A DNA stretch of 64,000 nt, from NCBI RefSeq assembly GCF_035989285.1, contig NZ_CP108513.1:10540001-10604000 (forward strand), in the 5' to 3' direction. The stretch is from Streptomyces sp. NBC_01235. Its GTDB lineage: Bacteria; Actinomycetota; Actinomycetes; Streptomycetales; Streptomycetaceae. Shown here piece after piece: positions 2 through 36,393 of this stretch. The notes under the pieces were generated by a model. The model was not told where the DNA came from. It saw nothing but the letters and a program-made list of their open reading frames with translations, and did no database searches. How positions within the stretch are numbered: the first letter of the stretch is position 1; every line of letters starts with the position of its first letter. Both the position numbers and the translations under genes were made by a program.

Positions 2-1700
2 ATGGTGGACAAGTTCGACATCGACCTGTGCGACGGCGCGGGCCGGGTGACCGCCCGGGTGAGCGGCCTGGTCCAAAGGGCCGTCGGAGCCCGGGCGGCG
101 GCCCCGCACGGACAGGACGTCGTCACGGCCACCCCCGACTGGGTGCCCGTGCCGCTCTCCCCGCGAGGGGCCGCGAGCGCCCGCCGTACCGTCCTGCACG
201 GCTACCTCGCCGGTGCGCGGGTCTCCGGCACCGCCGACACGGGCGGCGCGTCGTTCGAACGCCTGCCGCGGGTGCGGCGCACCCAGGTGGCCGACGGCGT
301 GGGGGAGGTGCTGGACGTCGTCTTCGGCGCGCTGCGGACCGTACTGAGCGGCAGACCGAAGGAGGACCACCGCTTCGTCGTCCTGGTCGACGACCGGGTG
401 CCGCGACACTTCCACGCGCCGCTCACCGGTCTGTTCAGGACCGTCGCCCTGGAGAACCCGGCGGTTGGAGGACGCGTGGTCCGGGTGGCGGGGCTGGACA
501 CCGCCGACGCGGAACACATCGAGCGGATCCTGCGCGACGAGGCCGCCGACGGGTCGGCCGACGCGGAGGTCCGCTACGACGCGGACGGCTCACGCCACGT
601 CCGGCGCGTCGTGGAGAGCGCGGAGCGGGTCCGGGGCCCCGAGGCGCCCGCGCTGAAGGACGGCGGCGTGTACTGGGTGACGGGCGGCCTCGGGGGCCTG
701 GGGCGCCACGTCGCGCGGTACTTCGCGCGCCGGGAAGGCGTCACCGTGGTGCTGAGCGGCCGTTCGGCATCCGGACCGGACACCGACGCCGCGCTGCGTG
801 CCCTGCGCGGCGAGGGAGTCGACGCGCACTACCTGGCCGTCGACGTCACCTGCGCGCAGGACGTGGCAGGAGCGGTCCAAGCCATCGTGCGCGCCCACGG
901 CTCGCTGGACGGTGTCGTCCACGCGGCGGGTGTGCTGCGGGACGGGTACGCGTTGCGCAAGGACCACGAGGACCTGCACACCGTGCTCGCTCCGAAGCTG
1001 GGCGGAACGATCCACCTCGACGCGGCGACCCGCGACCTCGACCTCGACTTCTTCGTCCTGTTCTCCTCCGTCGCGGGCGTCCACGGCAATCCGGGACAGT
1101 CGGACTACGCGGCGGCGAACGCCTTCCTCGACGCCTTCGCCGGCCACCGCCAGGCTCTCGTCGAAGCCGGCGAGCGCACCGGCGCGACCTTCGCGGTGAG
1201 CTGGCCGCTGTGGGCCGAGGGCGGGATGACGGTCGACGACGTGACGCGCGCGTCGATGCGCGAACGGCACGGCTGGGAGCCGCTGCCCACGGAGGCGGGC
1301 GTCCGCGCGCTGGGACACGTACTGGCCCATGGACCCCACCACGTCGTGGTGGCCTACGGCCGCGACGCCACCCTCACGGACACCGTCGCGGCGCCGGAAC
1401 CCGAGCGCACGGCAACGCCCCGGGACGAGGCCGCGGCGGACCGCGTCCCGCTCCCCGAGGACGGCCTCCGCTCGGGCACGACGGCGCTGCTGACGAGGCT
1501 CCTGGCGGAGGTGCTGCACCACGAGCCGGACGCCGTCGACCCCACCGTGAACCTGGTCGAGTACGGGATCGACTCCCTCGGCATCCTCGACATGACCGCT
1601 CGTCTCGAGCAGCTGTTCGGCCCACTGTCCAAGACGATCTTCTTCGAGTACCTGAACGTGGCCGATGTGGCCGGGTACTTCATCGCCACCCACCGGGAGA
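2..1700 (+). other. PKS module end: DH (last residues)-KR-ACP
   Basis: The first ~25 residues match the end of a dehydratase domain, followed by the KR structural subdomain, the NADPH-binding GGLGGLG motif (about residue 228) and an active-site set Ser/Tyr369/Asn373. The ACP carries its phosphopantetheine serine in GIDSLG (Ser525). A DH plus KR would deliver an alpha,beta-unsaturated (enoyl) thioester to the next KS, which matters for the branching interpretation of the following module. The KS of this module lies upstream of the window. Confidence 0.85.
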
Positions 1701-4700
1701 AACTGGAGAAGGTCCTGGCCGGACAGGACGCACCGCCGCCGCCCGACCCGCCCCGGGAGGAGGCCACTGCCCCGCCCCGCCCCGTCGCCCCGCGCGGAAG
1801 GACGGACACGCGCGAAGGAACGGACTCGCGCGAAGGGACGCAGCCGCCCGCCGCGCCCGACGACCGCCACGACATCGCGATCATCGGCATCTCCGGCCGC
1901 TACCCCGGAGCCCGCACCATGGACGAGCTCTGGGCGCTCCTGGAGGAGGGGCGCGACTCCTTCGAAGAGGTCCCGCGCGACCGCTGGAACCACGACGCCA
2001 TCTACAGCCGCGACCGGGCCGAGCCGGGCAAGAGCGTCATCCGCACCGGCACCTTCCTGCGGGACATCGACACGTTCGATCCGCGCTACTTCCGCATTTC
2101 CAAGCGGGACGCGGAGCAGATGTCGCCGGAGGTCAGGCTCTTCCTCCAACTCGGCGTGGAAGCCCTGGAGGACGCCGGGTACTCGCGTGAGCAGATCCAG
2201 CGGCAGTACCAGGGAGATGTCGGCGTGCTGGCCGGCACCATGAGCAACCACTACGGCCTGTACGGGTTCCAGAACGGCCTGGTGCGCGGTGCCCGGCAGA
2301 GCGGCAGTTACAACGCGACGATGCCCAACATGCTCTCGTACTTCTATGGGCTGACCGGACCCTCGATCTTCCTGGACACCATGTGCTCGACGTCCTCGAC
2401 GTGCGTGCACCAGGCCGTGCAGATGCTGCGCGCCGGTGACTGCGAGATGGTCGTCGCCGGCGGTGTGAACCTCCTGCTGCACCCGTACAACCTCATCACC
2501 TCCTCCCAGGAGCACTTCACGACGGCCACCTCGGACGTCATCCGCAGTTACGGTCTCGGCGTCGACGGAACCATCCTGGGCGAAGGCGCAGGCGTGGTGG
2601 TCCTCAAGTGCCTCGCCGACGCGGAGCGGGACGGCGACCACGTCCACGCGGTCATCAGGGGAACGGCGATCACCAACGCGGGGACGCGCAACGGCTTCAC
2701 CGTGCCCAGTGTGGCGATGCAGGCCCGCGCGGTGGAGAAGGCCCTGGACGACGCGGGCGTGGACCCCCGGACCATCAGCTATGTCGAGGGGCACGGCTCC
2801 GGGACCTCGCTCGGCGACCCCATCGAGGTCAAGGCGCTGACCGACGCGTTCCGCGCGTCCACCGCGGACACCGGCTTCTGCGCTCTGGGCTCCGTCAAGT
2901 CCAACATGGGGCACCTTCTCGCGGCGGCGGGTGTGGTCGGTATCGCCAAGGTCGTCCTGCAGCTCCGCGAGGGCAAGATCGCGCCCTCGCTGCACAGCGA
3001 CGATCTCAACCGGGACATCCCGTTCGGGGACACCCCCTTCCACGTCCCACGCCGGCTCACCGACTGGCGGAGGCCGGTCACGGTCGTGGAGGGGCGGCGC
3101 GTCGAGCACCCCCGCCGGGCCGGGATCACCTCGATCGGCGCCGGCGGGATGAACTCGCACCTGATCGTGGAGGAGTACACGGCCGCCCCGACGGCGCACC
3201 ACGACGGGCGCCACGAGCTCTTCGTCTTCTCGGCGATGACCGACGAGGCGCTGGAGACCTACCTGCTCCGCTTCCGCGCGTTCATGGCCACGCGGGACGA
3301 CACCGACCTGGCGTCCATCGCCTTCACACTCCGCGTGGGCAAGAACGAACTGCCCCGGCGCTGGGCCTTCCTCGCCAAGGACCACCGGGGTGTCGTCGAG
3401 GCCATCGACCGGTACCTGGCGGGAGACCGCGACGTCGAACGCGCCCTCGTCGGGGACGGCCCGGGAACCGCGGTCGCACGGGACACCGGCATCGCCTGGA
3501 CCAACGGCCGGAGCGTCGACTGGACCGTGCTGAGCGACGGCCGTGGACTGCGCCGTCTGCCCCTGCCGGCCTACCCCTTCGCCGAGGTCCGCTGCTGGGT
3601 GGAGGAGGACCCGGACGCCCCCTCGGTGATCGCACCGCTGGCGTTCCGGGGCGCGCTCCACCCCTTCCTCGGGCAGAACGAGTCCGACCTCGACGGGCTG
3701 CGCTACGGGCTGGACGTCCACCTCGACGACCTCCTCGACTACGGGTACCAGCAGGACAAGGAACCCCGCATCGTCCCGACGTTCGCCGTCGACGCGGCGT
3801 TGGCCTGTGCCCGTGTCTCCGGGTTCGCGGGCAGTGCGCGGATCCGCGGGCTGCGGCTGCCTGGGCGTATCGACTGGGCCAAGGCGGCGCGGCTCGTCAC
3901 GACCTTCTCGGCCGCCGGCCGGACCGGCACCGGCACCGTGTTCGTCCAGGAGGAGTCGGGCACCCGTACACCGGTCGCGGGGTTCACCGTGCACGCCGGC
4001 GACGGCCCCGACGCGGAACGCTGGGGAACCGTGCCCGGTCTGGGCACCGACGAGCTCGCCCGCGAGGCCCTCGGCGTTCTCACCCGGGCGCGGTTCCTGG
4101 CGGAACTGGCGGAAGGAGGGATCGAGCGCCCGCAGATGTTCGACGGCGTCCAGGCGGCGTACTGGCTGCCGGGCGGGCGCCTGGTGTTCGACATGACTGC
4201 GCCGGACTTCCAGCAGAACCACGTCAAGCGGAACGTCTGCATCGAGCCGTCCGTCCTGGCGGCGATCGCCCACGGCGTCCAGCTCGTGGCGAAGCGGGCC
4301 GGTGTGCCCCGCTGGGCGCGTCTGGTGCCGCACCGGATCGACGAGGCCGGTGTGTCGGCCGACATCGCCGACGTGACCCGCGTCGTCTTCGACCTCACCG
4401 CCGAGGACGGCGGACTCGGCGGACGCATCCGGCTGGTGAACCGGACGGGCCGGCTCGTCGGCGAACTCACCGACGTGTGGTGGGGCGACGAGAACGCCGT
4501 CGTGCGTCAGGACCGGGCCACCGGACGGGACACCCCGGCCGCCTCCGCGCCGGAGCCCGACAACGTGGCCCGGCCGGCCCCCGCGACCGAGGCCCGGCCC
4601 TCCGACACCGCGGCCGTCGCCTTCGTCGCCGACGAGCTGCGCGCCCTCGCGGCGGGCATCCTGGGCTTCGAGCCGGACGAACTCGACACCACCACCGGCT

Positions 4701-7700
4701 TCTACGCCTTCGGCTTCGACTCCGTCACCCTGGTCACCCTCGCCGACCTGGTGCGTGAGCGGTTCGGCGTGCCGATCAGCCCGGCGGTCTTCTTCGACCT
4801 GGACACGCTCGACGCGCTGGCAGGGCACCTGGTGGAGGAGTTCGGGGAGCGGATCCCGTCAGGGGAGCGCCCGTCCCCGCCGGAGCGCCCGTCCCCGCCG
4901 GAGCGGGTGGCCCCCCGGACCGTGGCCGGAGAGGACGAGGAGCCGGCCGAGCGGCCCACGGCACCGACCGCCGCGGCACCGACCGCCGCGGCACCGACCG
5001 CCGCGGCACCGACCGCCGCGGCGTCGGCGGCTGTGGCGCCGCTCGCCGTGGCGTCGGCGGCTGTGGCGCCGCTCGCCGTGGCGTCGGCGGCTGTGGCGCC
5101 GCTCGTCGAGGCGCCGACCGCCGCGGCACCGCTCGCCGAAGCGGCGGACGCCGCGCGGACGCCGATGCCCGTCGCGGTCGTCGGCGCGGCCGGCCGCTTC
5201 CCCGGGGCCCGCGACCTCGACGAGTACTGGACGAACCTCGTCAGCGGTGTGGACTCGGTCGCGGAGTTCCCGGTCCACCGGTACGACGACACATATGCCC
5301 GGGTCGTCGAGGCGGCGGACTTCCCGCGCCACGCCGGAGTCCTGGACGACGTGGACGCGTTCGACGCGGGCTTCTTCCGCATCTACCCGAGGGAGGCGGA
5401 ACTGCTGGACCCACAGCACCGTCTCGCCCTGGAGACCGTCTGGAGCGCACTGGAGGACAGCGCCTACCGACCCGCCGACCTGCCGGTCGACACCGGCGTG
5501 TTCCTCGGCGTCTCGGGGACCGACTACGCGACCCTGCTCAGCGCGCACGGCGTCGAGCCGGACGCCTTCACCGCGACGGGCAACGCGCACTCCATGCTCG
5601 CCAACCGCGTCTCCTTCGTGCTGGACGTACGAGGACCGAGCGAGCCGATCGACACGGCCTGCTCCAGCTCACTGGTCGCCGTCCACCGCGCGCTCGAGGC
5701 CATCCGGTCCGGGGCCTGTGCCATGGCCATCGCGGGCGGCGTGAACCTGCTGCTCAGCACGGACACGTTCGTCAGCGCCCACCGGGCGGGCATGCTCAGC
5801 CCCGACGGACGGTGCAAGACCTTCTCCCGCGACGCGAACGGATACGTGCGGGGCGAGGGCGTCGGTGCCGTCGTCCTCAAACCCCTGGCGGCTGCCGAAC
5901 GGGACGGTGACGCCATCCTCGGGGTGCTGCTCGGAAGCGCCGAGAACCACGGGGGCCGGGCGAACTCGCTGACCGCCCCCAACGCCGACGCCCAGGCCGA
6001 CGTCGTGTCGGCGGCCATCGGCGGCACCGACCCGGACACGATCGGCTACATCGAGACCCACGGGACCGGTACCGCCCTGGGCGATCCGGTCGAGGTGCGG
6101 GCCCTGCGCTCCGCCTTCCGGCGCCTGGACGCCGCCGGACGCGGCATGTGCGGCCTGGGGTCCGTCAAGACGAACATCGGCCATCTGGAGGCCGCCGCCG
6201 GTGTCGCGAGCCTGCTGAAGGTGCTGCTGGCGATGAAACACGGCGTCCTGCCCGCGACGCTGCACTGCCGTGAGGTCAACCCCTACATCGAGCTGGACGA
6301 CAGCCCGTTCCACCTCGTGCGCGATAACGAGACCTGGCGGCGCCCGCCCGGTCGCGACGGCACGCCGGCACCGCGGCGCGCGGGTGTCAGCAGCTTCGGC
6401 TTCGGTGGCGCCAACTGCCATGTGGTCGTGGAGGAGTACGTCGACCCGAACGCCGACCGGGCCGGCGACGGCGCTGCGGTCGGTGCTGTGGTCGTCCCCC
6501 TCTCCGCCCGCACGGAGGGACAACTGCGCGACGTCGCACGGAACCTGCTGACCCATCTGGAGGACGAGCGCCACGCTTCCGTCCCGCTCGGCTCCATCGC
6601 CTGGACGCTTCAGGCGGGGCGGGAGGCGATGCCGGAGCGCGTCGGCTGGGTGGTCGAGTCCCGCGCGCAACTCGTACGCGTCCTACGGGCGTTCGTCACC
6701 GACGGCCAGGTCGGCGAGGGCGGTGCCCGGGGCACCGCGGTACGCTCCGGTGCCGCGAGTGCGCCGCACGGCGTCGAGCCGGCCGACGACCTCCGGCGGA
6801 TCCTGCTGCACTGGACGCGGGGTGCCGAACCCGACTGGCGGGTACTGCACGGAGTTCGCGCGCCGAGGCGCGCGCACCTTCCGACGTACCCCTTCGCACG
6901 CGAGAGCCACTGGATCCCCGGCCACGCGCCACGCCGCGACCTCCCGGTGGCCCCGTCGGGCTCTGCCGCCGGTTCCGCCACCGCTCCCCCCGGCGTGGGA
7001 ACCGCCCTTCTCGTGCCCCGGTGGACACCGGAGCCCATCGGACCGGACCGTGACGGCACGGCCGCCCCCACCCGTCGCGTCGTGGTGCTCCACGAAGCGG
7101 TCGGCTTCGCGCGAGACGCCATCGAGCGCCGGGACCCGACCGTGCGGTGTGTCACCGTCACGTCGCGGAGGAAGCGGCTCGACGCCTGGTTCCGCGATGT
7201 CACGGGCCAGTACCTGGAGATCGTCCGTGAGCTGGCCGCCGACGACCACCGGGGCAGGACACTCGTACAGGCGGTCGTACCCGCCCACGGCTCGCAGGCC
7301 GTCGCCTTCGCCCTCACCGGGCTGATGCGGACCGCCACGCTCGAAGCCCCCCAACTCATGGGCCAGGTCATCGGGTTCGAGGAGTTCCCGCAGCAGGACG
7401 GCGTCCTGAGGGATGTCCTCGAGGCGGAGGCCCGCGGCGGCGACGACGTCGTGCTGTACCGCGACGGACTCCGCCTGGTGCGTACATGGGAGTCGGTCAC
7501 GGCACCGCCGCGTGGGGAGGACGGGTTGCTGCGCCCCGGAGGCGTGTACCTGATCACGGGTGGTGCGGGGGGCGTCGGCGCCGTCGTGGCGCGCTGGATC
7601 GCGAACGCGACCACGAACCCCACCGTCGTCCTGGTCGGCCGGTCACCGCGGGACGAGGCCGTCGACGCGCTCCTCGGCGAACTGCGTGCCGCCGGCGCCG

Positions 7701-10700
7701 TCGCCCGGTACGACCGGGCCGACGTCTCACGCTGGGAAGAGGCACGCCACCTGGTGGCGGACATCAGCGCGCAAGCCGGCCCGATCGACGGCGTCCTCCA
7801 CGCGGCCGGCGTGATCCACGACGCCTCGCTGACCACCAAGACGACCCAGGAGTGGGAGGACGTCCTCGCGCCCAAGGCAGACGGTCTGGTCAACCTCGAC
7901 CGGGCCATCGGTGGCGCGCCGCTCGACTTCCTGATCGCCTTTTCGTCGGGGGCGGCGGTCACGGGGAACGCGGGACAGTCCGACTATGCCACCGCCAACG
8001 CCTTCCTCGACGAGTTCGCGGCGATCCGCAACGCGCGGGTGGCAGCCGGGGAACGCTCCGGACGCACCGTGTCGATCGCCTGGCCGTTGTGGGCGGCCGG
8101 CGGGATGCCGGTGTCCCGGACCGCCCTCGAATCCCTGTGGCACAGCCGTGGTCTGACGCCGATGTCCTCGGCCGACGGTGTCGCCGCGCTGTCCGACGCG
8201 TGGCGGCTGGGCGAGGACCGGGTGTGGGTTCACCACGGTCGGCTGTCCGGGACACCCGCCACACGGAGCCGACGAGATGATGCGGTCACGACGACCGAGC
8301 CCCAGGAACCCGCTCCCCGTGGGAACGGTTCCGGGGAGACCCTGCGTCATCTCGTCCAGACCTTCGCCAACGTCACGAAGATGCCCGTGCACGGCGTCGA
8401 CGTGGACCAGCCGCTCGGCTCGGCCGCGCTCGACTCGATCATGGTCGTCCAGCTGAACAGGGAACTCGCCCTGGCCTACGACGACGTGCCCTCGACCCTC
8501 TTCTACGACCTGCCCACGCTGCGGGCCATCGCGCAGCGGCTCGCGTCCCTCGGGCCCGCCGCACCGTCGAGGCCCACGCCGTCCACGCCGTATGCCGAGG
8601 AGGCGCATCGGGAACCTCGCGCCGCGGCGGTGGTGACCGTCCGGCAGCCGGAACCGCGGGAGGCGGCGACACCCACGCCGCCGGTGCGCGAACCCATCGC
8701 CATCATCGGAATCAGCGGGCGCTATTCGCACGCGGAGAACCCCGACGAGTTCTGGGCGAACCTGAGGGACGGGCGGGACTGCATCAGCGAGGTTCCCGGC
8801 GACCGGTGGCCGCTGACGGGCTTCTACGAGCCCGACCGCCGGGCGGCGGTCGCAGGCGGCCTCAGCTACAGCAAGTGGGGCGGATTCGTCGACGACTTCG
8901 CCTCGTTCGATCCGCTCTTCTTCCAGATCGCACCACGCGACGCCTACGCGATGGACCCGCAGGAGCGGCTCTTCCTGCAGGCATCGTGGGAGGTGATCGA
9001 GGACGCGGGATACACGCGTGAGTCGCTCGGCCGCCGCCACGGAGGGCGTGTCGGAGTCTTCGCGGGAGTCACCAAATCCGGCCACGCACGCCACGGAGCC
9101 GGCCGCCTGCCATCCGGTGAGACGGTGGTTCCGGCGCTCTCGTTCGCCTCGCTGAGCGCGCGCACGTCGTACCTGTTGGATCTCAACGGCCCGAGCATGA
9201 CCATCGACACCATGTGCTCGGCATCGCTGACCGCGGTGCACGAAGCGTGTGAGCACCTGTACCAGGGCGCCTGCGACGTGGCCGTCGCGGGTGGTGTCAA
9301 CCTGTACCTCCACCCCCTCGACTACGTCGAACTCTGCCACTCGGGCATGCTGTCGCAGGACCGTCACTGTCGCAGTTTCGGCAGCGGCGGCCACGGTTTC
9401 GTCCCGGGCGAGGGCGTGGGCTGTGTCCTGCTGAAGCCGCTGTCGAAGGCCGTGGCCGACGGCGACCGGATCCTGGCGGTCATCCGCGGCACGAGCATCA
9501 ACCACGGCGGGCGGTCCAACGGGTACACGGTGCCGCGCTCCGGCGCCCAGGCGGAACTGATCCGCCAGACCCTGACCCGCGCCGGCGTGTCGGCTCGCGA
9601 CATCGGTTACGTCGAGGCCCACGGCACCGGCACAGAACTGGGCGATCCGATCGAGATCCAAGGTCTGACGACCGCGTTCGAACAAGACACCGGCGACAGG
9701 CAGTTCTGCGCGATCGGATCGGCGAAGTCCGGCATCGGGCACCTGGAGGCGGCGGCGGGCATAGCCGGGCTCACCAAGGTGGTCCTCCAGCTCCGGCACC
9801 GGCAGATCGCGCCGAGCCTGCACGCCGAGAGCCTGAACCCGAACATCCGGTTCGAACGGACGCCGTTCTTCGTCCAGCGCGAGCTGACCCCCTGGCACTC
9901 CGAAGGCCGGCCGCGGATCGCGTCCGTCTCCTCCTTCGGCGCCGGAGGGTCGAACGCCCACGTGATCGTCGAGGAGTACACGCCACCGCAGACCGAGGAG
10001 CACGCCCCAGCAATGGCACAGTCTTCCGCCGACGGCACCGAGCACCTGGTCGTCCTCTCGGCGCGCACCCCCGAACAGCTCGCCGACGGCGCCGCGCGTC
10101 TTGCGGAGTTCGTCGAACACGGCGACGTCGACCTCGCCGACCTCGCCTTCACCCTGCAGACCGGCCGCGAGGCCATGCGCGAACGCCTGGCGATCGCCGT
10201 CTCCTCGACGCCGGCCCTGCTGAGCGCCCTGCGTGACTTCCTGGCCGAAGCCACCGGAGACATCCGTGTTCCGGGCCTGCACCGGAGCAGCACCTCGGGT
10301 GCCGCCTCCGGGCTGGTCGCCGAGATGGCCGACGAGGACGTGCGGGAACTGCTGGTCGAGCGTTGGGCACGGGCGGGAAAGCTCTCGAAACTGGCCGCTG
10401 TGTGGGTCGAGGGGCTGGAGGTCGACTGGCACCTGCTGCACTCAGGAGCCACACGCAGGCGCATCGCCCTGCCCACCTACCCGTTCGCCCGTGACCGGTT
10501 CTGGATCGGAGACCTCGACCCGGCCACCGCGAGCAGAAGCGAGAAGGAGCAGGTCGCGACTGCTCAGCAGCCTGTTCCGCTTCCGGCCGCACCGCCCGGG
10601 CGGCGGTCCGGCGCGGCGGAGCGCGCGAGGAAGCCGTCGCCTGTGCCGCTCGAGGAACAGGTACCGAACCTCGTACGCGCCGTCCTGGCGAAGGCCCTGG

Positions 10701-13700
10701 CCATGCGGGAGGACGACATCGTCGGCACCTCCGCTTTCGCCGACTACGGACTGGACTCCATCCTCGCGGTACGGGTGGCGCACGAACTCGGCGAAGCCCT
10801 GTCGCTCGACCTCGACACGGGCATCCTGTTCGACTACAGCTCGGCGGACCGCCTGACCGAACACCTGCTCACGGCCTACCGCGACACCATCGAGGTCACC
10901 CGGCCCACCGGCCGGCTGCCGGACCCGCCGGCCGCAGAGCCCGTGTCCGGGACCGCGCGGTCCGCGACGGCACCGCTCGCCGGTACGGCGCCCCAGGGGC
11001 CCAGGAGCCTGTCGGCCGGAGGGCGACCGCCCATCGCTGTCATCGGCATGAGTGGCCGGTTCGCCGGCTCGGACTCCCTCGACGAACTGTGGACGCACCT
11101 GGCCGACGGGGATGACCTCGTCACCACCACGACCCGGTGGAGCGACGGCACCGCTGACGCGACGACACCGCGCCCGCTGCGCGGTGGCTTTCTGGACCGC
11201 ATCGACGAGTTCGACTCGCTGTTCTTCAACATCTCGGGTGTCGAGGCGGCCGGTATGGACCCACAGCAGCGCCTGTTCATGGAGGAGGCGTGGAAGGCCC
11301 TCGAAGACGCGGGATACCCGGCCCGGGCGATGGACGAACGACGCTGCGGTGTCTACGTCGGGTGCTGGGCCGGCGACTACCCGGGAGGTGAGGGGGAATC
11401 AGCCCCCGTACAGGGACTGTGGGGGAACATGGGATCCGTCATTCCGGGACGGATCTCCTACTTCCTCAACCTCAGGGGACCGGCTCTGGCGGTCGACACG
11501 TCCTGTTCCAGTTCCCTGGTGGCGATCGACCTGGCCTGCAAGGACCTCTGGTCGGGCGAGACGACGATGGCGCTGGCGGGCGGAGTCTTCGTCCAGTCGA
11601 CACCGCGGCTGTACGGGCTCGCGGAACGTGGCGGGATGCTGTCGCCCTCCGGCCGCTGCCACACTTTCGACCACCGCGCCGACGGCTTCGTACCCGGCGA
11701 AGGTGTCGGTGTCGTGGTGCTCAAGCGCCTCGAGGACGCCCTCGCCGACGGTGACCACATCCACGGTGTCGTCCGCGGCTCCGGCGTGAACCACGACGGT
11801 GCCACCAACGGGCTCACGGCGCCGAGTTCCCTCTCGCAGGAACGCCTGCTGCGGGACGTCTACGACACCTTCGGCATCGACGTACGGCGCATCGGCATGG
11901 TCGAGGCGCACGGCACGGGCACGAAGCTGGGGGACCCGATCGAGTTCGGTGCGCTGACCCGTGCGTTCCGCGAGGACACCGACAGGTCGGGATACTGCGC
12001 CGTGGGTTCCGTCAAGAGCAACCTGGGCCACACGCAGTTCGCGGCGGGAATCGCCGGAGTGCTCAAGGTGCTCCTGGCGTTCCGGCATCGGCAGATCCCG
12101 GCGTCGCTCCACTTCGAGGCCCCCAACGAGGCGATTCCCCTGGAGGGCAGCCCCTTCTACGTCAGTACGCGCACCCACCCGTGGGAGACCTCCGACGGGG
12201 TGCCGCGCTGCGGCGCCGTGAGCGCGTTCGGTGCGAGCGGGACCAATGTCCACCTGGTCCTGGAAGAGCTGCCGGCCGAGCCGCGAACCTCCGGTGCGCA
12301 ACGCCCGGCGCTTCTCGTCGTGCTCTCGGCCCACTCGCGTGACCAGCTCAGCGAGCAGGTGGCACGGCTGGCGGCACACTGTCGTCGTCAACCGCACCAG
12401 GACATCGGCGACATCGCGCACACTCTCATGGTGGGACGAGAGCACTTCCGATACCGCTTCGCGTGTGTCGTACGGGATCACGATGACCTGATCCGAGTGC
12501 TGGAAGCCGACCTCGCCGGACCCCGCGCCCTCGTCGGCGACGCCGCGGAACGGCGTGGGGACCAGGAGGCTGCGCGCAGGGGCCGGGAGTTGCTGCGCCG
12601 GTGTGCGGACTCCGAAACCGGAGATCTCCCCGCCCTGCGCGCGGATCTGGAAGCACTGGCCGACCTGTACGTGACGGGCGCAGCCCTCGACTACGACGAC
12701 GTGTTCGCCTCCGGTGGGCACCGCCGCGTGCCGCTGCCCACCTACCCGTTCGCCCGGGTGCGCCACTGGGCCGGAGAGGACCTCCGCTCACAAGCCCCGC
12801 GCCGCACGCCTGACACGGCCGGCCGGGAGATCGCATCGGTTCAGGGCGAACCCGGCGTGCTGCGCTCCCCCGTGATGTTCGCGGACACCGGACGGTTCCT
12901 GGACGACCACGTGGTCCAGGGGAAGCGCGTCCTGCCCGGTGTCGTGTATCTCGAGATGGCGAGGGAAGCGGCGGCACGCTTCCTCGGCGCCTCCCCGGCC
13001 AGGGCGCTGCGCCTGCGCAACGTCACCTGGGTGCAGCCGATCGCGGTGGACGGCACCCCGGCGGACGGCACCCCGGCGGACGTGGAGCTCCTCGTGCGAC
13101 CCGCGTCCGACGGCGTCGCCTTCGAGTTCCGTTCGACGGGTGAGGAGCCCACTCTGTTCTGCGAGGGAAGGGTCGCCCTGTCCGACGCACCGCGCCCGCC
13201 CAGGACCGACCTGGCGGCCCTCCGCGGCCTCTGCCGCACGACGGTGTCGGGCGAGCGCATCCACGAGGCGCTGGTGTCCCGCGGCATCGACCACGGCCCG
13301 GCCCTCCGCGCCGTCCGCCAAGCGCACACGGGTTCCGCTGTGGTGGTGGCACGACTCCAGGTACCCACCGCCGCGCCTCGGCCGGCGGCCCCCTTCGTGC
13401 TGCACCCGTCGCTGCTGGACTCGGCCATCCAGTCCTCGGTCGCGCTTCACCTGGCGGGAAGCGGGATGCCGCAGGAGACCACCGTTCCCTTCGCCCTGGA
13501 GCAGCTTGACGTCTTCGGGCCGTGTGCGGAGTCCATGTGGGCCGTCGTCCGCCCCTCGGACAGGTCGGGGACGGACGAGTCACTCAGCCGGCTCGACATC
13601 GACCTGGTCGACGACGCGGGGGAGGTATGCGTCCGCATGACCGGTTACACCGCGCGCCGGGTGACGGCTGCGCCCCCGTCTCTCTTCGCGCCGATATGGG

Positions 13701-16700
13701 AAGTGCTGCCCCCTCAATCCCTCACCGAGGCCGTCCCCGGCCGCGGCGACCATGTGCTGGTCGTGGGAGGCAGCGCCGAGCAGCGCTCCCTCCTCACGCG
13801 CCAGTGCCCTCGTACCACCCTGTGGCACCTCGGACCCGCTGCCACGATCGACGAAGTGGCCGACGCCCTGCGCTCGGTGGCGCCGGTCGACCACCTGGTG
13901 TGGATAGCACCGGACTCCGAGCCGGCGGCGACCGACGCGGCCGGCTTCGCCGCCGCCCAGCTGGAAGGCGTGGTGGCCGCTTTCCGCATGACCAAGGGCC
14001 TGCTGCGCGCGGAGTACGACCGGAGCCCCCTCGGCATCACCCTGGTCACCCGACGCGCCCTTGCCACCCACTCCGCCGAGCGGACTCGGCCCGCCCACGC
14101 CGGGCTGCACGGGCTGTTCGGCTCGCTCGGACAGGAGTACCCGAGCTGGACCGTGCGGCGGGTCGACCTGGCGGACACCCGGTGGCCGGCGGACCTCACG
14201 GCGCTCCCGGCGCGGGTCCGGGCGGACTCCTGGGTCCACCGCGCGGGCCAGTGGCTGACCCGAAGGTGGGCTCCCTGCGAGGTCGAAGGGGCGCAGCCGA
14301 CCAGATACCGCGAGGGGGGCGTCTACGTCGTGATCGGTGGTGCCGGCGGCCTCGGCACCGCGTGGACGCGGCACGTGGTGGAGGACTTCGGCGCCCACGT
14401 GGTCTGGCTCGGGCGCAGTCCGCACGACGCGTCACTCGATGCCAAGCTGGCGTCTGTCCGCGGGCGCGGCAGCGTGCGCTACATCGAGGCCGACGCGGCG
14501 GACCACTCGTCACTGCGTGGCGCCTACCACCGGATCAAGTCCGAGTTCCCCAGGATCCACGGCGTCGTGCACGCGGCACTCGTGCTCCGCGACCAGACAC
14601 TCGCCACGATGGACGAGGCGACGCTGCTCGCGAGTCTGTCGGCGAAGGTCGACGCCGCCGTCACCACGGCGCAGGTGTTCGGCGGCGAGGACCTGGACTT
14701 CGCCCTGTTCTTCTCGTCCATCCAGTCCTTCGCGACGACGGCCGGGCAGAGCAACTACGCCGCGGGCAGCGTGTTCGTCGACGCCTACGCCCGCCTGCTG
14801 GCCGGGCACTGGCAGTGCCCGGTGAAGGTCATGAACTGGGGCTGGTGGGGGAGCCAGGGCAGCGTCTCGTCCGACTACTACCGGCAGCGCATGACCCGGG
14901 CGGGACTCGTCTCCATCGAGGCTCCCGAGGCGATGGAGGCCATCGACGTCCTGTTGGGCGGCCCGTACGACCAGTTGGGATTCGTCAAGCTCACCGGACT
15001 CGACGCGCTGAGCACCGTCGAACCGGCGGCAAGGACGACCGTGCGTCCGCGGGCCCTCTCGCGGGTGCCCGCGCACGTGCTCACCGCTCACGAGACGGAT
15101 CCGGGTGAGTACCGGCTGCTGCGTGCCGTCGCCGAATGGCGCGGGAAGGAACGCGACCCGATGCTCCGCCGGCTACTGCGCGCGCACCTCGTGGCGCTCG
15201 GGGCGGTGGCTCCCGGCGAGGGCGCTCCCGCGGACGCGGACGCCGATGCACGGTGCAAGCAGGCAGGCGTCCTGGAGCGGTACAGGCCCTGGCTCGATCA
15301 GGCACTGCGGGTGATCCCGGACGCCGCGCCGCCCTTGGACACGGCCATGCGCGAGTGGGACGAACGCCGGCAGGCGTGGTCCTCGGACCCTTGCGTCAAG
15401 GCGGAACTGGAGCTGGTGGACGCCACGCTCCGAGCCCTGCCCGACATCCTGACGGGCGTCGAGCGACCGACCGATGTCATGTTCCCCCGCGGCTCCTTCG
15501 AGCTCGTCGAGGGCTGCTACCGCGACACCCCGGTGGCGGACGCGTTCAACCGAGCCGTGCAGGACACGGTCGTCGACCTGGTGACCGAACGGCTGCGCCA
15601 CGACCCGAACGCGCGGATCCGCATCCTGGAGATCGGAGCCGGCACAGGTGGTACGAGCGTCGGCCTGTTCAGGGCACTGCGGCCCTTCCAGGACAGCATC
15701 GAGACGTACACGTACACAGACCTGTCCAAGGCATTCCTCAACAACGCGCGCGACACCCACGGCCCCGATGTGCCCTACCTGAGCTGCGCGTTGTTCAACG
15801 TCGAACAGCCACTGGCCGGTCAGGGCATCGAGGAGGGCGGCTACGACATCGTCGTGGCCGCGAACGTCCTGCACGCGACCGCGAACATCCGCAACACGCT
15901 GCGCAATGCCAAGGCGGCACTGTGCGACGGCGGTTGGCTGGTGCTGAACGAGCTGTCGACATTCGACGTCTTCAGCCACCTCACCTTCGGTCTGCTGGAG
16001 GGGTGGTGGCTCTCCGAGGACACTCCGCTGCGCATCCCCGGATCCCCGGCACTGTCCCCCGACGGCTGGCGCGAGGTTCTGGAGGGCGAGGGTTTCCGGA
16101 CGGTCGTCTCCGTGCTGCCGCAGGCCGGCGAACTCGGCCAGCAGATCATCGCCGCGGAGAGCGACGGGACCGCGAGGCAGATCGTCCTGGGCCGGGCACC
16201 GCGCCCGGTCGTTCCGGAAGCGGTGTCGCAGGGGGCGGTGGTGGCGGGCCCGGTGTCGGCAGGGGCCGGTGCCGGCGAGGTGCTTGCGGGTTACCTGCGG
16301 GAGAAGGCGGCGCAGGTGTTGGGGGTGCCGCGGGAGCGGATCGAGGGTGCGGTGCCGCTGGCGTCGTACGGGTTGGACTCGTTGCTGGTTCTGCAGTTGA
16401 CCAACGTGATCCGTGCGGATCTGGGGGACGACGTGTCGTCGACGCTGTTGTTCGACGTGGAGTCCTTGGACGGGCTGGTGGAGTATTTCCTGGCCCAGCG
16501 CGCGGCGGCCGTCGACGCCCTCGTGGCGTCCCGGCGGCAGGCGAACGGCGCCGAGCGCTGGGCTCTGTCACGCAGCCAGAGCAGGCTGTGGCAGAGGCAC
16601 AAGCGCCACCCGAGCGCGTCCACCTACAACATCCCCCTTCTGTTCGAGATCCACGGCGCTTTCGACGAGCACGCGCTGGAAGAAGCATGCCGTTCGCAAT

Positions 16701-17968
16701 CGCGGTCGCACCCGATTCTGGGAGCCGTCTTCCGGGAGGTGGATGGCACGCCCTGCATGGAGATCGACACATCGCGCGGCATCTCCTTCCAGAAGACGCA
16801 CATCGCGGCACAGTCCCGGGCGGACCAGCTCGACGGCCTGCGGGAGCTGGCGAACCGCCCGTTCGACCTGGCGGCGGGCCCACTGGCACGGGCACACCTC
16901 GTGACCCTGGAGTCCGGCTCCGCGCACCGGCGCCACCTGCTGCTCGTCACGGTTCATCACATCGTCGTCGACGGTACGTCCGCAGCGGTCCTGGTGCGGT
17001 CGCTGAAGGATGCCTACGGCGCGGCCCTGCGGTCGCACGAGACCCCGAGTGCCGATCAGGACGATGTGACCTATGCCGACTTCGTGGCCTGGGAATCCGC
17101 ACTGCTGGAGAGCCCCGCGGCGGAAAGCCATCGGGCCTACTGGCTGGGCGAACTGCGGGGGCCGCGAAGCGAACTCGCGCTGCCACGCGACCGGCGGGAC
17201 ACGGCGGGACTCGTCCCGCGCAGCGGTATCGTCCTCGCGAACCTGACAGCGGAGGTCACGGAGGCGTTCAGCGCACGGGCGCGTTCCCATCGGGTCGGCG
17301 TGGCAACGCTCTTCCTCGCCACCTACGCGGTCTTCCTCCACTCCCTGACCGGTCAGTCGGACCTTGTCGTCGGGTTTCCCACGGTCGCCCGGTACGAGGA
17401 GCGCTTCAAGAACGTGATCGGCCAGTTCGTCAACTGCCTTCCGATCCGCTGTTCCGTGTTCGAGGGCGAGGACTTCGGCACGCTCCTCGGCCGTATCGGT
17501 CGCGCGGTCGTACGCGGCATCGAACACGGCGCCTATCCCGCGCTGGAGATCGAGCGGGCGCTCGCCGAGGAGGAAGGCGGTGCGGGGCCCGAACTGGTCG
17601 TCACGAACCTGCTCTTCCAGAACTTCGACGGGGCGTCCCTGTTCACCGGCGCGGCCGGCACGGCACCCGGCCCGCTCGACCTCAGGCCCTTCGACGACCT
17701 GCCGGACTCCGGGGAGATGCCGGTCACGGTCGAGATCTACCAGGGGCCGGACGGCTACAAGGTCTTCCTGAAGTACGACGCGAACGCCTTCGAGGCGTCG
17801 ACGGCCCAGGCCATGTCGGACGAGTTGAGCCTCGTCATCGAGCACGTGGCGCACGCGCCGGACTTCCCGATCGGTGAGGCGCCGTGGCGCGGGAGCCGGG
17901 GGCGTCGCGTGAGGACCACCGCGCCCCCGACCGGGGTCGACCCACAAGAAGGGAACGGGCACGCATGA
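2..17968 (+). CDS. trans-AT modular polyketide synthase, C-terminal part (5' partial)
   Basis: This is the 3' end of an AT-less modular type I PKS. The window opens mid-gene, so the ATG at 2 is internal. Numbering residues from position 2, the domains are: the last ~25 residues of a DH; KR (Ser355/356, Tyr369, Asn373); ACP (Ser525); KS (Cys795, His931, His971); a DH-fold domain without catalytic residues; ACP (Ser1574); KS (Cys1887, His2020, His2061); KR; ACP (Ser2812); KS (Cys3072, His3207, His3247); ACP (Ser3586); KS (Cys3835, His3970, His4010); DH (His4303, Asp4473); KR (Tyr4919); C-methyltransferase (SAM motif GAGTGG near 5212); ACP (Ser5460); and a condensation domain (His5652, His5653, Asp5657). 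No acyltransferase domain occurs, so malonyl units must come from a separate AT outside the window. The stop overlaps the thioesterase start in ATGA. Domain calls are from motifs; the product is not known. Confidence 0.95.
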   Translation: MVDKFDIDLCDGAGRVTARVSGLVQRAVGARAAAPHGQDVVTATPDWVPVPLSPRGAASARRTVLHGYLAGARVSGTADTGGASFERLPRVRRTQVADGVGEVLDVVFGALRTVLSGRPKEDHRFVVLVDDRVPRHFHAPLTGLFRTVALENPAVGGRVVRVAGLDTADAEHIERILRDEAADGSADAEVRYDADGSRHVRRVVESAERVRGPEAPALKDGGVYWVTGGLGGLGRHVARYFARREGVTVVLSGRSASGPDTDAALRALRGEGVDAHYLAVDVTCAQDVAGAVQAIVRAHGSLDGVVHAAGVLRDGYALRKDHEDLHTVLAPKLGGTIHLDAATRDLDLDFFVLFSSVAGVHGNPGQSDYAAANAFLDAFAGHRQALVEAGERTGATFAVSWPLWAEGGMTVDDVTRASMRERHGWEPLPTEAGVRALGHVLAHGPHHVVVAYGRDATLTDTVAAPEPERTATPRDEAAADRVPLPEDGLRSGTTALLTRLLAEVLHHEPDAVDPTVNLVEYGIDSLGILDMTARLEQLFGPLSKTIFFEYLNVADVAGYFIATHREKLEKVLAGQDAPPPPDPPREEATAPPRPVAPRGRTDTREGTDSREGTQPPAAPDDRHDIAIIGISGRYPGARTMDELWALLEEGRDSFEEVPRDRWNHDAIYSRDRAEPGKSVIRTGTFLRDIDTFDPRYFRISKRDAEQMSPEVRLFLQLGVEALEDAGYSREQIQRQYQGDVGVLAGTMSNHYGLYGFQNGLVRGARQSGSYNATMPNMLSYFYGLTGPSIFLDTMCSTSSTCVHQAVQMLRAGDCEMVVAGGVNLLLHPYNLITSSQEHFTTATSDVIRSYGLGVDGTILGEGAGVVVLKCLADAERDGDHVHAVIRGTAITNAGTRNGFTVPSVAMQARAVEKALDDAGVDPRTISYVEGHGSGTSLGDPIEVKALTDAFRASTADTGFCALGSVKSNMGHLLAAAGVVGIAKVVLQLREGKIAPSLHSDDLNRDIPFGDTPFHVPRRLTDWRRPVTVVEGRRVEHPRRAGITSIGAGGMNSHLIVEEYTAAPTAHHDGRHELFVFSAMTDEALETYLLRFRAFMATRDDTDLASIAFTLRVGKNELPRRWAFLAKDHRGVVEAIDRYLAGDRDVERALVGDGPGTAVARDTGIAWTNGRSVDWTVLSDGRGLRRLPLPAYPFAEVRCWVEEDPDAPSVIAPLAFRGALHPFLGQNESDLDGLRYGLDVHLDDLLDYGYQQDKEPRIVPTFAVDAALACARVSGFAGSARIRGLRLPGRIDWAKAARLVTTFSAAGRTGTGTVFVQEESGTRTPVAGFTVHAGDGPDAERWGTVPGLGTDELAREALGVLTRARFLAELAEGGIERPQMFDGVQAAYWLPGGRLVFDMTAPDFQQNHVKRNVCIEPSVLAAIAHGVQLVAKRAGVPRWARLVPHRIDEAGVSADIADVTRVVFDLTAEDGGLGGRIRLVNRTGRLVGELTDVWWGDENAVVRQDRATGRDTPAASAPEPDNVARPAPATEARPSDTAAVAFVADELRALAAGILGFEPDELDTTTGFYAFGFDSVTLVTLADLVRERFGVPISPAVFFDLDTLDALAGHLVEEFGERIPSGERPSPPERPSPPERVAPRTVAGEDEEPAERPTAPTAAAPTAAAPTAAAPTAAASAAVAPLAVASAAVAPLAVASAAVAPLVEAPTAAAPLAEAADAARTPMPVAVVGAAGRFPGARDLDEYWTNLVSGVDSVAEFPVHRYDDTYARVVEAADFPRHAGVLDDVDAFDAGFFRIYPREAELLDPQHRLALETVWSALEDSAYRPADLPVDTGVFLGVSGTDYATLLSAHGVEPDAFTATGNAHSMLANRVSFVLDVRGPSEPIDTACSSSLVAVHRALEAIRSGACAMAIAGGVNLLLSTDTFVSAHRAGMLSPDGRCKTFSRDANGYVRGEGVGAVVLKPLAAAERDGDAILGVLLGSAENHGGRANSLTAPNADAQADVVSAAIGGTDPDTIGYIETHGTGTALGDPVEVRALRSAFRRLDAAGRGMCGLGSVKTNIGHLEAAAGVASLLKVLLAMKHGVLPATLHCREVNPYIELDDSPFHLVRDNETWRRPPGRDGTPAPRRAGVSSFGFGGANCHVVVEEYVDPNADRAGDGAAVGAVVVPLSARTEGQLRDVARNLLTHLEDERHASVPLGSIAWTLQAGREAMPERVGWVVESRAQLVRVLRAFVTDGQVGEGGARGTAVRSGAASAPHGVEPADDLRRILLHWTRGAEPDWRVLHGVRAPRRAHLPTYPFARESHWIPGHAPRRDLPVAPSGSAAGSATAPPGVGTALLVPRWTPEPIGPDRDGTAAPTRRVVVLHEAVGFARDAIERRDPTVRCVTVTSRRKRLDAWFRDVTGQYLEIVRELAADDHRGRTLVQAVVPAHGSQAVAFALTGLMRTATLEAPQLMGQVIGFEEFPQQDGVLRDVLEAEARGGDDVVLYRDGLRLVRTWESVTAPPRGEDGLLRPGGVYLITGGAGGVGAVVARWIANATTNPTVVLVGRSPRDEAVDALLGELRAAGAVARYDRADVSRWEEARHLVADISAQAGPIDGVLHAAGVIHDASLTTKTTQEWEDVLAPKADGLVNLDRAIGGAPLDFLIAFSSGAAVTGNAGQSDYATANAFLDEFAAIRNARVAAGERSGRTVSIAWPLWAAGGMPVSRTALESLWHSRGLTPMSSADGVAALSDAWRLGEDRVWVHHGRLSGTPATRSRRDDAVTTTEPQEPAPRGNGSGETLRHLVQTFANVTKMPVHGVDVDQPLGSAALDSIMVVQLNRELALAYDDVPSTLFYDLPTLRAIAQRLASLGPAAPSRPTPSTPYAEEAHREPRAAAVVTVRQPEPREAATPTPPVREPIAIIGISGRYSHAENPDEFWANLRDGRDCISEVPGDRWPLTGFYEPDRRAAVAGGLSYSKWGGFVDDFASFDPLFFQIAPRDAYAMDPQERLFLQASWEVIEDAGYTRESLGRRHGGRVGVFAGVTKSGHARHGAGRLPSGETVVPALSFASLSARTSYLLDLNGPSMTIDTMCSASLTAVHEACEHLYQGACDVAVAGGVNLYLHPLDYVELCHSGMLSQDRHCRSFGSGGHGFVPGEGVGCVLLKPLSKAVADGDRILAVIRGTSINHGGRSNGYTVPRSGAQAELIRQTLTRAGVSARDIGYVEAHGTGTELGDPIEIQGLTTAFEQDTGDRQFCAIGSAKSGIGHLEAAAGIAGLTKVVLQLRHRQIAPSLHAESLNPNIRFERTPFFVQRELTPWHSEGRPRIASVSSFGAGGSNAHVIVEEYTPPQTEEHAPAMAQSSADGTEHLVVLSARTPEQLADGAARLAEFVEHGDVDLADLAFTLQTGREAMRERLAIAVSSTPALLSALRDFLAEATGDIRVPGLHRSSTSGAASGLVAEMADEDVRELLVERWARAGKLSKLAAVWVEGLEVDWHLLHSGATRRRIALPTYPFARDRFWIGDLDPATASRSEKEQVATAQQPVPLPAAPPGRRSGAAERARKPSPVPLEEQVPNLVRAVLAKALAMREDDIVGTSAFADYGLDSILAVRVAHELGEALSLDLDTGILFDYSSADRLTEHLLTAYRDTIEVTRPTGRLPDPPAAEPVSGTARSATAPLAGTAPQGPRSLSAGGRPPIAVIGMSGRFAGSDSLDELWTHLADGDDLVTTTTRWSDGTADATTPRPLRGGFLDRIDEFDSLFFNISGVEAAGMDPQQRLFMEEAWKALEDAGYPARAMDERRCGVYVGCWAGDYPGGEGESAPVQGLWGNMGSVIPGRISYFLNLRGPALAVDTSCSSSLVAIDLACKDLWSGETTMALAGGVFVQSTPRLYGLAERGGMLSPSGRCHTFDHRADGFVPGEGVGVVVLKRLEDALADGDHIHGVVRGSGVNHDGATNGLTAPSSLSQERLLRDVYDTFGIDVRRIGMVEAHGTGTKLGDPIEFGALTRAFREDTDRSGYCAVGSVKSNLGHTQFAAGIAGVLKVLLAFRHRQIPASLHFEAPNEAIPLEGSPFYVSTRTHPWETSDGVPRCGAVSAFGASGTNVHLVLEELPAEPRTSGAQRPALLVVLSAHSRDQLSEQVARLAAHCRRQPHQDIGDIAHTLMVGREHFRYRFACVVRDHDDLIRVLEADLAGPRALVGDAAERRGDQEAARRGRELLRRCADSETGDLPALRADLEALADLYVTGAALDYDDVFASGGHRRVPLPTYPFARVRHWAGEDLRSQAPRRTPDTAGREIASVQGEPGVLRSPVMFADTGRFLDDHVVQGKRVLPGVVYLEMAREAAARFLGASPARALRLRNVTWVQPIAVDGTPADGTPADVELLVRPASDGVAFEFRSTGEEPTLFCEGRVALSDAPRPPRTDLAALRGLCRTTVSGERIHEALVSRGIDHGPALRAVRQAHTGSAVVVARLQVPTAAPRPAAPFVLHPSLLDSAIQSSVALHLAGSGMPQETTVPFALEQLDVFGPCAESMWAVVRPSDRSGTDESLSRLDIDLVDDAGEVCVRMTGYTARRVTAAPPSLFAPIWEVLPPQSLTEAVPGRGDHVLVVGGSAEQRSLLTRQCPRTTLWHLGPAATIDEVADALRSVAPVDHLVWIAPDSEPAATDAAGFAAAQLEGVVAAFRMTKGLLRAEYDRSPLGITLVTRRALATHSAERTRPAHAGLHGLFGSLGQEYPSWTVRRVDLADTRWPADLTALPARVRADSWVHRAGQWLTRRWAPCEVEGAQPTRYREGGVYVVIGGAGGLGTAWTRHVVEDFGAHVVWLGRSPHDASLDAKLASVRGRGSVRYIEADAADHSSLRGAYHRIKSEFPRIHGVVHAALVLRDQTLATMDEATLLASLSAKVDAAVTTAQVFGGEDLDFALFFSSIQSFATTAGQSNYAAGSVFVDAYARLLAGHWQCPVKVMNWGWWGSQGSVSSDYYRQRMTRAGLVSIEAPEAMEAIDVLLGGPYDQLGFVKLTGLDALSTVEPAARTTVRPRALSRVPAHVLTAHETDPGEYRLLRAVAEWRGKERDPMLRRLLRAHLVALGAVAPGEGAPADADADARCKQAGVLERYRPWLDQALRVIPDAAPPLDTAMREWDERRQAWSSDPCVKAELELVDATLRALPDILTGVERPTDVMFPRGSFELVEGCYRDTPVADAFNRAVQDTVVDLVTERLRHDPNARIRILEIGAGTGGTSVGLFRALRPFQDSIETYTYTDLSKAFLNNARDTHGPDVPYLSCALFNVEQPLAGQGIEEGGYDIVVAANVLHATANIRNTLRNAKAALCDGGWLVLNELSTFDVFSHLTFGLLEGWWLSEDTPLRIPGSPALSPDGWREVLEGEGFRTVVSVLPQAGELGQQIIAAESDGTARQIVLGRAPRPVVPEAVSQGAVVAGPVSAGAGAGEVLAGYLREKAAQVLGVPRERIEGAVPLASYGLDSLLVLQLTNVIRADLGDDVSSTLLFDVESLDGLVEYFLAQRAAAVDALVASRRQANGAERWALSRSQSRLWQRHKRHPSASTYNIPLLFEIHGAFDEHALEEACRSQSRSHPILGAVFREVDGTPCMEIDTSRGISFQKTHIAAQSRADQLDGLRELANRPFDLAAGPLARAHLVTLESGSAHRRHLLLVTVHHIVVDGTSAAVLVRSLKDAYGAALRSHETPSADQDDVTYADFVAWESALLESPAAESHRAYWLGELRGPRSELALPRDRRDTAGLVPRSGIVLANLTAEVTEAFSARARSHRVGVATLFLATYAVFLHSLTGQSDLVVGFPTVARYEERFKNVIGQFVNCLPIRCSVFEGEDFGTLLGRIGRAVVRGIEHGAYPALEIERALAEEEGGAGPELVVTNLLFQNFDGASLFTGAAGTAPGPLDLRPFDDLPDSGEMPVTVEIYQGPDGYKVFLKYDANAFEASTAQAMSDELSLVIEHVAHAPDFPIGEAPWRGSRGRRVRTTAPPTGVDPQEGNGHA
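1865..4850 (+). other. PKS module KS-DH*-ACP, candidate branching (B/X) module
   Basis: The KS is complete (Cys795 in DTMCSTS, His931, His971). Between the post-KS linker (ending near LPAYPF) and the ACP lies a ~290-residue double-hotdog-like segment starting at HPFLGQ. Where a dehydratase has DHxVxGxxxLPG this domain reads LDYGYQQDKEPRIVP, so Tyr1247 replaces the catalytic His. Where a dehydratase has HPxLLDxxxQ it reads EPSVLAAIAHG, so Ala1420 replaces the catalytic Asp. It therefore cannot be an ordinary dehydratase. KS-X-ACP modules of this form are known for vinylogous chain branching in rhizoxin and in glutarimide PKSs (iso-migrastatin, cycloheximide and streptimidone families). That assignment here is inference from architecture. 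Confidence 0.6.
4961..5125 (+). repeat. Ala-rich in-frame tandem repeats in PKS linker
   Basis: Four perfect copies of a 15-bp unit (gcaccgaccgccgcg, 4961-5020, encoding APTAA) are followed by three copies of a 30-bp unit (5021-5050, 5051-5080, 5081-5110, the last one diverged in its final third) and one imperfect copy of the 15-bp unit (5111-5125). All lengths are multiples of three, so the frame is kept. They lie in the flexible linker between the DH*-module ACP and the next KS. Slippage or unequal crossing-over would change linker length without breaking the gene. Confidence 0.9.
5160..8550 (+). other. PKS module KS-KR-ACP
   Basis: KS with DTACSSS (Cys1887), ETHGTGT (His2020) and KTNIGH (His2061); KR with GGAGGVG nucleotide-binding motif and Ser-Tyr-Asn in a QSDYATANAF context, so it looks active; ACP serine in ALDSIM (Ser2812). 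Expected result: one C2 extension with the new beta-keto group reduced to a hydroxyl. Confidence 0.9.
8690..10890 (+). other. PKS module KS-ACP (no reductive domains)
   Basis: KS with DTMCSASL (Cys3072), EAHGTGT (His3207) and KSGIGH (His3247), a post-KS linker ending in LPTYPFARDRFW, then directly an ACP (Ser3586 in GLDSIL). Nothing lies between linker and ACP, so the beta-keto group should be kept unless a trans-acting enzyme modifies it. Confidence 0.9.
11025..16510 (+). other. PKS module KS-DH-KR-MT-ACP
   Basis: KS (Cys3835, His3970, His4010); DH with intact HxxxGxxxLP (His4303) and HPSLLDSAIQ (Asp4473); KR with GGAGGLG and QSNYAAGSVF, where Ser4923 sits in the usual Asn position; a SAM-dependent C-methyltransferase (ILEIGAGTGG from about 5208); ACP Ser5460. 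Expected product: an alpha-methyl, alpha,beta-unsaturated thioester. The last ACP coding stretch differs in codon style from the rest of the gene (see findings). Confidence 0.88.
16545..17920 (+). other. Terminal NRPS-type condensation domain of the PKS
   Basis: About 430 residues after the last ACP contain the condensation-family active site HHIVVDG (His5652, His5653, Asp5657) and downstream family features such as the YADFVAWE-like region and the GQFVNCLPIR region. No adenylation or carrier domain follows; the protein ends ~20 residues later. Terminal C domains in trans-AT PKSs can release the chain onto a free amine or alcohol, or onto an amino acid loaded elsewhere. Which applies here cannot be read from the window. 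Confidence 0.85.
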
Positions 17969-36199: not shown

Positions 36200-36390
36200 T
36201 AGGATCGAAAGACCCAGGGATGCCGGGTGTGGCTCATGGGTTTCCGCCCGTTGGTGGCTTGAAAGGATTGGCCGCCCGGCATCCCGCGACGACTCGACCA
36301 CTCATTGGGATGCGCGGCACAAGATCGCTTGGTAAGGACACGCTGGCGAGGTCGTCTGCTGGGCTGTGAACGGATACGACTTCGGAGGTG
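36200..36390 (+). ncRNA. candidate bridge RNA in IS110 left end
   Basis: The non-coding left end contains a perfect 11-bp inverted repeat, gggatgccggg (36217-36227) and cccggcatccc (36275-36285), enclosing a 47-base loop, followed by further unstructured sequence up to the transposase start. In IS110-group elements a structured RNA from this position guides target and donor recognition. The position and strong helix support that, but the loop-to-target matches were not established. Confidence 0.45.
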
Positions 36391-36393
36391 GCC

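Follow-up and report, generated by a model that had tools for sequence, protein, structure and literature searches.

What is a dehydratase-like domain that lacks the dehydratase residues doing in the second module of a polyketide synthase (PKS)? This question is raised by a 64,000-nucleotide stretch of Streptomyces sp. NBC_01235 (contig NZ_CP108513.1, positions 10,540,001 to 10,604,000; G000:C1:10540001-10604000 on an 11.09-Mb single-contig genome), hereafter the window. A preliminary description of its letters pointed to a domain of dehydratase (DH) fold, placed between a ketosynthase (KS) and an acyl carrier protein (ACP) and with both catalytic residues replaced, as a candidate chain-branching (B or X) domain. 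The domain lies in a PKS gene that has no acyltransferase (AT) domains and encodes five modules and a terminal condensation (C) domain (window 2..17968, + strand, with its 5' end outside the window). We find that it is almost certainly the B (X) domain of the module in which a glutarimide synthase branches its polyketide chain. The computed basis of this reading is gene content, domain order, residues, phylogeny, and predicted fold. The step chemistry is drawn from published work on RhiE, of the rhizoxin PKS, and on sister clusters, and we infer expression and the exact chain.

The B domain and its relatives

The domain spans window 3617..4492 (+ strand; residues 1206-1497) and sits in a KS2-B-ACP2 module, as the preliminary description held. 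Its predicted fold is a DH-like double hotdog, and the catalytic His and Asp that a dehydratase requires are missing. In our MAFFT alignment, the Asp position is occupied by Ala1420, in agreement with the earlier assignment, whereas the His position falls on Tyr1249 and not on Tyr1247. Judged from the alignment, Tyr1247 is a conserved residue of the family and not the His replacement, because it is invariant in 22 of 22 B domains and matched in RhiE. RhiE likewise has neither His nor Asp at these positions, but Tyr and Thr. Five of the 22 B domains (L022, L024, L029, L031, and L032) have a His in the catalytic-His column, with the Asp replaced by Thr. Such variation fits the absence of catalytic constraint. 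Two further comparisons were dropped as discriminators between B and DH domains: the predicted fold, on which DHs and RhiE tie, and Pfam/NCBIfam, where the PS-DH match fell short of its cut-off and the B domain drew no NCBIfam family.

The B set comprises 22 PKSs: that of the window, three plasmid loci, and 18 genome loci. The genome loci (16 Streptomyces and two Kitasatospora) were drawn from 193 candidate stretches by a pattern-based scan with a four-row alignment; the corresponding scan of plasmids yielded three records with E values no higher than 1. Exactly one B domain was found in each of the 22 PKSs. Three DH-like matches shorter than 230 residues and DH-profile matches overlapping B domains were excluded before counting, and 10 weak B-profile matches (≤23.7 bits), which lie in ordinary DHs, were kept out of the B count. 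Within the genus, 17 of the 392 genomes searched carry a B domain, the present one included. A divergent cluster of glutarimide type (L054/L055/L056; G367:C487) has a B domain that scores only 97 bits on the profile. Identities are about 57% for its amidotransferase and 51% for its AT, whose reading frame also includes a stretch resembling a thioesterase. Its PKS is divided among more than one gene.

In an 81-row tree, the 22 B domains and the RhiE B domain are separated from 58 DHs by a branch with support of 100/99. Thus, the window's domain joins its 21 sisters and RhiE and does not cluster with inactive DHs of unrelated modules. RhiE serves as the named reference in this tree; iso-migrastatin and cycloheximide domains are not among its rows, and gDH5 is absent from the rows for L022 and L032. 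RhiE forms a long branch here and was also checked by profile, independently of any tree. The 22-row B profile gives it 38.4 bits, whereas its scores with the DH profiles are 7.3 (DH1), -1.7 (DH5), 0.2 (other DHs), and 7.3 bits (all DHs). With phmmer, its first 21 matches are B domains, and one DH5 ranks ahead of the last B. Conversely, RhiE is the top Protein Data Bank (PDB) match of the B domain, both as a single sequence (E 1e-3, against 5.5e-3 for the best DH) and as a profile (E 5e-8 against 6e-7, a margin of only one order of magnitude). The RhiE B domain shares at most 23% identity with any B row. The module order KS-B-ACP is the same as in the RhiE branching module (PDB 4kc5 and 8oii), with which the window's module aligns end to end.

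The branching ketosynthase and the starter genes

Passages of PMC4979870 attribute both the Michael addition and the ring closure to the KS alone, with the B domain as a structural requirement. B and X domains are described there as non-catalytic and interchangeable, and RhiE B can be exchanged for the X domain from the 9-methylstreptimidone PKS. The proposal of a branching domain stands as regards kinship with RhiE B and the type of its partner KS, but on this source the branching itself is catalysed by the KS, and the B domain is a scaffold.

Since the KS carries the branching chemistry according to that account, KS2 (window 1871..3160, +) was tested for kinship. Its Cys-His-His triad is intact, and its best single-domain PDB match is the RhiE KS (592 bits, against 488 for the runner-up). 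A chain with two KSs, 7zma, outscores this only by summing 408 and 467 bits. In a tree of 82 of the 149 KS rows, the 22 KS2 domains and the RhiE KS fall on one side of a branch with SH-aLRT support of 100. Furthermore, two motifs counted across all 149 rows distinguish these domains: SPEVRLFLQ occurs in 21 of 22 branching KSs and GGMNxH in all 22. RhiE has both. Neither was found in 87 other KSs of the same PKSs or in 39 unrelated KSs (0/126 together). EGHG (15/22) and GHLLAA (13/22, and also 3 of the 39 unrelated KSs) are weaker. The motifs were picked post hoc from the alignment of the window with RhiE, and the other 21 loci serve as the test. Thus, SPEVRLFLQ and GGMNxH form a simple KS signature that marks branching modules in the present data set.

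The genes expected for a glutarimide start lie in the 20 kb directly upstream of the window (L009; G000:C1:10520001-10540000). Here, a malonyl transacylase (trans-AT; L009 14257-15105; TIGR00128, 271 bits) is followed by a standalone ACP (15110-15361; recognised by eye) and an AsnB-like amidotransferase (15377-17380; TIGR01536, 440 bits), with KS1-DH1 next. The malonamyl starter set is thus complete upstream of the PKS. Homologues of the amidotransferase and the AT are found upstream of the PKS in 20 of the 21 related loci, the lone exception (L027) being a 13.7-kb contig that starts within the PKS. The amidotransferase is 68-85% identical to its counterparts in 20 of the 21 sister loci, and it is present in all 17 B-positive genomes of the genus. 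The preliminary description, a reading of raw sequence without tools, recognised the branching domain and correctly predicted these genes beyond the window, naming an amidotransferase and a trans-AT.

The complete PKS has 6863 amino acids. It starts at window -2623, where it overlaps the end of the amidotransferase gene, and its domain order is KS1-DH1-KR1-ACP1, KS2-B-ACP2, KS3-KR3-ACP3, KS4-ACP4, KS5-DH5-KR5-MT-ACP5, C (KR, ketoreductase; MT, methyltransferase). The window begins inside DH1, with KS1 and most of DH1 upstream. The KS-DH-KR-ACP module predicted to supply a Michael acceptor is therefore found directly before the branching module. Its KR1 lies at 665..1216 (+; Pfam KR, 179.7 bits) and its ACP1 at 1484..1681 (+; PP-binding, limits by eye), with the Ser of the GIDSLG motif (1562-1582) present. 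The branching module ends in ACP2 (4631..4831, +; PP-binding), in which the Ser of GFDS is present. The linker between ACP2 and KS3 (about 4950-5130) consists, in the protein, of short repeated units, PTAAA and SAAVAPLAVA.

The predicted product and its alternatives

We propose that the trans-AT would malonylate the standalone ACP and that the AsnB-like amidotransferase would convert malonyl-ACP into malonamyl-ACP. Module 1 would extend the malonamyl unit to an alpha,beta-unsaturated thioester. KS2 would hold this chain and catalyse the Michael addition of ACP2-bound malonate onto its beta-carbon. Attack of the terminal amide on the KS thioester would then close the glutarimide ring, with 2-(2,6-dioxopiperidin-4-yl)acetyl-ACP2 as the outcome. 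In this scheme, the B domain would be the double-hotdog scaffold of the branching module and would not need dehydratase residues.

Three conserved modules follow the first KS-DH-KR-ACP-KS-B-ACP unit, and the PKS matches those of the 21 loci. All their domains are on the + strand. Module 3 has KS3 (5168..6268), KR3 (7541..8095), which predicts a C8-OH, and ACP3 (8351..8542). Module 4 has KS4 (8693..9826, start by eye) and ACP4 (10670..10867); no MT was found in it, and in the absence of reductive domains the ketone would be kept. Module 5 has KS5 (11030..12140, end by eye), DH5 (12884..13678) with catalytic His and Asp intact, KR5 (14318..14851), an MT domain (15626..15940; Methyltransf_12), and ACP5 (16292..16486). 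This content matches the earlier prediction of CH(OH), a kept ketone, and a methylated alkene, and the modules predict the chain glutarimide-CH2-CH(OH)-CH2-CO-CH2(or CHMe)-CH=C(Me)-CO-. According to PMC7756379, the one MT of the last common module appears to act on two intermediates in Streptomyces lines but on only one in gladiostatin. Because its use differs between lines, methylation of the module-4 carbon is not predictable here.

This five-module plan is that of known glutarimide PKSs. Those for cycloheximide (chx), 9-methylstreptimidone (smd), iso-migrastatin (mgs), and lactimidomycin (ltm) are described, in sections of PMC4853412 and PMC7756379, with the same AT, ACP, AsnB-like amidotransferase, five modules, and single MT in the last. 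They end in a thioesterase (TE) or continue with more modules, whereas a C domain ends the protein here. These four were compared by description; the sequence comparison covers the 21 loci that share this build, among them L015 from Kitasatospora mediocidica, a species named as a carrier of a glutarimide PKS–nonribosomal peptide synthetase (NRPS) in part of PMC4853412. The Gram-negative gladiofungin/gladiostatin and sesbanimide PKSs share the malonamyl start and the branching module but have other downstream modules and another release, with an AfsA-like domain and, in sesbanimide R, an NRPS module with arginine (from portions of PMC7756420, PMC7756379, and PMC8262917). Thus, the domain is an ordinary part of an enzyme type already known, and the cluster almost certainly encodes a further glutarimide synthase.

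Could the domain instead be an ordinary dehydratase that decayed in place, leaving a normal KS-(dead DH)-ACP elongation module without branching? The predicted DH double hotdog and the lost catalytic pair would be expected of such a relic. However, the domain belongs to a conserved family found once per PKS, splits with RhiE from the 58 DHs used, in line with the profile scores, and is partnered by a KS of the branching type. Decay would yield neither a conserved, RhiE-linked family nor such a KS, and we therefore regard it as extremely improbable. A branching module that forms a delta-lactone or a lactam would account for the relationship to RhiE, the nearest solved relative, which forms a delta-lactone in rhizoxin. 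Moreover, the rhizoxin module takes hydroxy, amino, and carboxamide nucleophiles in vitro (both statements from passages of PMC4979870). Yet the genes directly upstream encode an AsnB-like amidotransferase and a standalone ACP, and with one module only before the branch, the amide would be the reachable nucleophile. A lactone or lactam is accordingly very improbable: of the glutarimide and the delta-lactone named in the preliminary description, the amidotransferase points to the glutarimide.

Within the glutarimide class, the cluster could make cycloheximide or streptimidone with tailoring genes elsewhere in the genome, an arrangement that Streptomyces sp. 2AW is reported to have for cycloheximide. 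The five-module plan is identical, and parts of PMC4853412 report terminal C domains in place of a TE in cycloheximide-like clusters of S. noursei ATCC 11455, Streptomyces sp. 769, and Saccharopolyspora flava. Those clusters are reported there with the tailoring genes chxG-J, of which chxG codes for an enoylreductase, chxH for a ketoreductase, and chxI for a P450, whereas here ATP-grasp, carbamoyltransferase, and alkanesulfonate-monooxygenase-like genes stand beside the PKS. The ATP-grasp and carbamoyltransferase genes recur in the two nearest relatives, and neither has a close homologue among the 16 B-positive genomes besides the present one. Two of the other clusters (G175 and G149) encode a carboxylic acid reductase (NF041592; 1735 and 1804 bits), and one or other of them a short-chain dehydrogenase/reductase, an Oxidored_FMN protein, and a P450, as in cycloheximide-like clusters. 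With the G175 carboxylic acid reductase as query, the one cycloheximide-type tailoring enzyme searched for, the best match in the window's genome was 32% identical over 442 of 1153 amino acids, with none at full length. The lack of a full-length match and the terminal C domain of the PKS make cycloheximide an improbable product, on the gene content seen, and we consider this alternative unlikely.

Release and tailoring genes

The C domain that ends the glutarimide PKS (16562..17878, +; Pfam Condensation, 253 bits; HHIVVDG intact) also ends the PKSs of two relatives. Related C domains (48-54% identity) occur among the 16 other B-positive genomes. Four of these (G060, G111, G175, and G303) encode one in the open frame of the B domain, G149 and G100 in a separate frame about 15 kb away, and G019 on a different contig. 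In G060 and G111 it opens an NRPS, since more C domains come after it. A terminal C domain is itself already known from the three cycloheximide-like clusters reported in PMC4853412. The PKS gene is followed by a type II-like thioesterase gene (17965..18732, +; Pfam Thioesterase, 196 bits; start codon by eye, reading frame open from 17884), with homologues in L013 and L014.

Upstream of the starter genes lie genes for an ATP-grasp ligase resembling L-amino-acid ligases (L009 12804-14111, +), a NodU-type carbamoyltransferase (10730-12520, -), an MFS exporter (9422-10726, -), and an alkanesulfonate-monooxygenase-like protein (8242-9375, -). The solved protein nearest to the ATP-grasp ligase is an L-amino acid ligase (4wd3, E 4e-15). 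Orthologues of the ligase (56% identity) and of the carbamoyltransferase (74-75%) are near the PKS in L013 and L014; neither had a match in the other 19 loci as fetched, most of which cover only 10 kb to each side of the B domain. The present genome is the only one of the 17 B-positive ones in which the carbamoyltransferase was found at E 1e-60, and ATP-grasp matches at E 1e-20 in six others were 31-39% identical and not near the B domain. The two genes are downstream of the PKS in L013 (38048-41257) and L014 (37839-41048) and upstream here. That the pair was kept together despite this change of side argues that both belong to the pathway.

The alkanesulfonate-monooxygenase-like gene is 89-90% identical in L013 and L014, and a 63% relative (L060, about 16275-17000) stands beside the glutarimide PKS-NRPS cluster of G111. 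In the window downstream of the PKS are an IS110-type transposase gene (36388-37599, +) and an OrfB/TnpB-like gene (43275-44519, -). AMP-binding, Rieske, and acyl-CoA dehydrogenase genes at 20-34 kb were judged catabolic in appearance and excluded from the cluster.

A literature search for glutarimide clusters with a carbamoyltransferase, an ATP-grasp enzyme, or C-domain release found no described cluster of the present build; most subscription journals were outside its scope, and results on C-domain release were judged by title. Tentatively, the present cluster and those of Streptomyces sp. NBC_01483 and NBC_01450 could form a new glutarimide subclass. In this subclass, the C domain (or the type II-like thioesterase) would release the chain, the ATP-grasp enzyme would join a carboxylate to an amine or amino acid, and the NodU-type enzyme would carbamoylate a hydroxyl. 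The ligase would then amidate the released acid where cycloheximide producers reduce it to an aldehyde, although this end of the pathway is a guess.

The glutarimide class inhibits eukaryotic translation. The release and tailoring genes found here differ from those of the published clusters compared, and the product is possibly a new scaffold within that class. The cluster around the B domain may represent a new chemical variant, and this is the part worth following.
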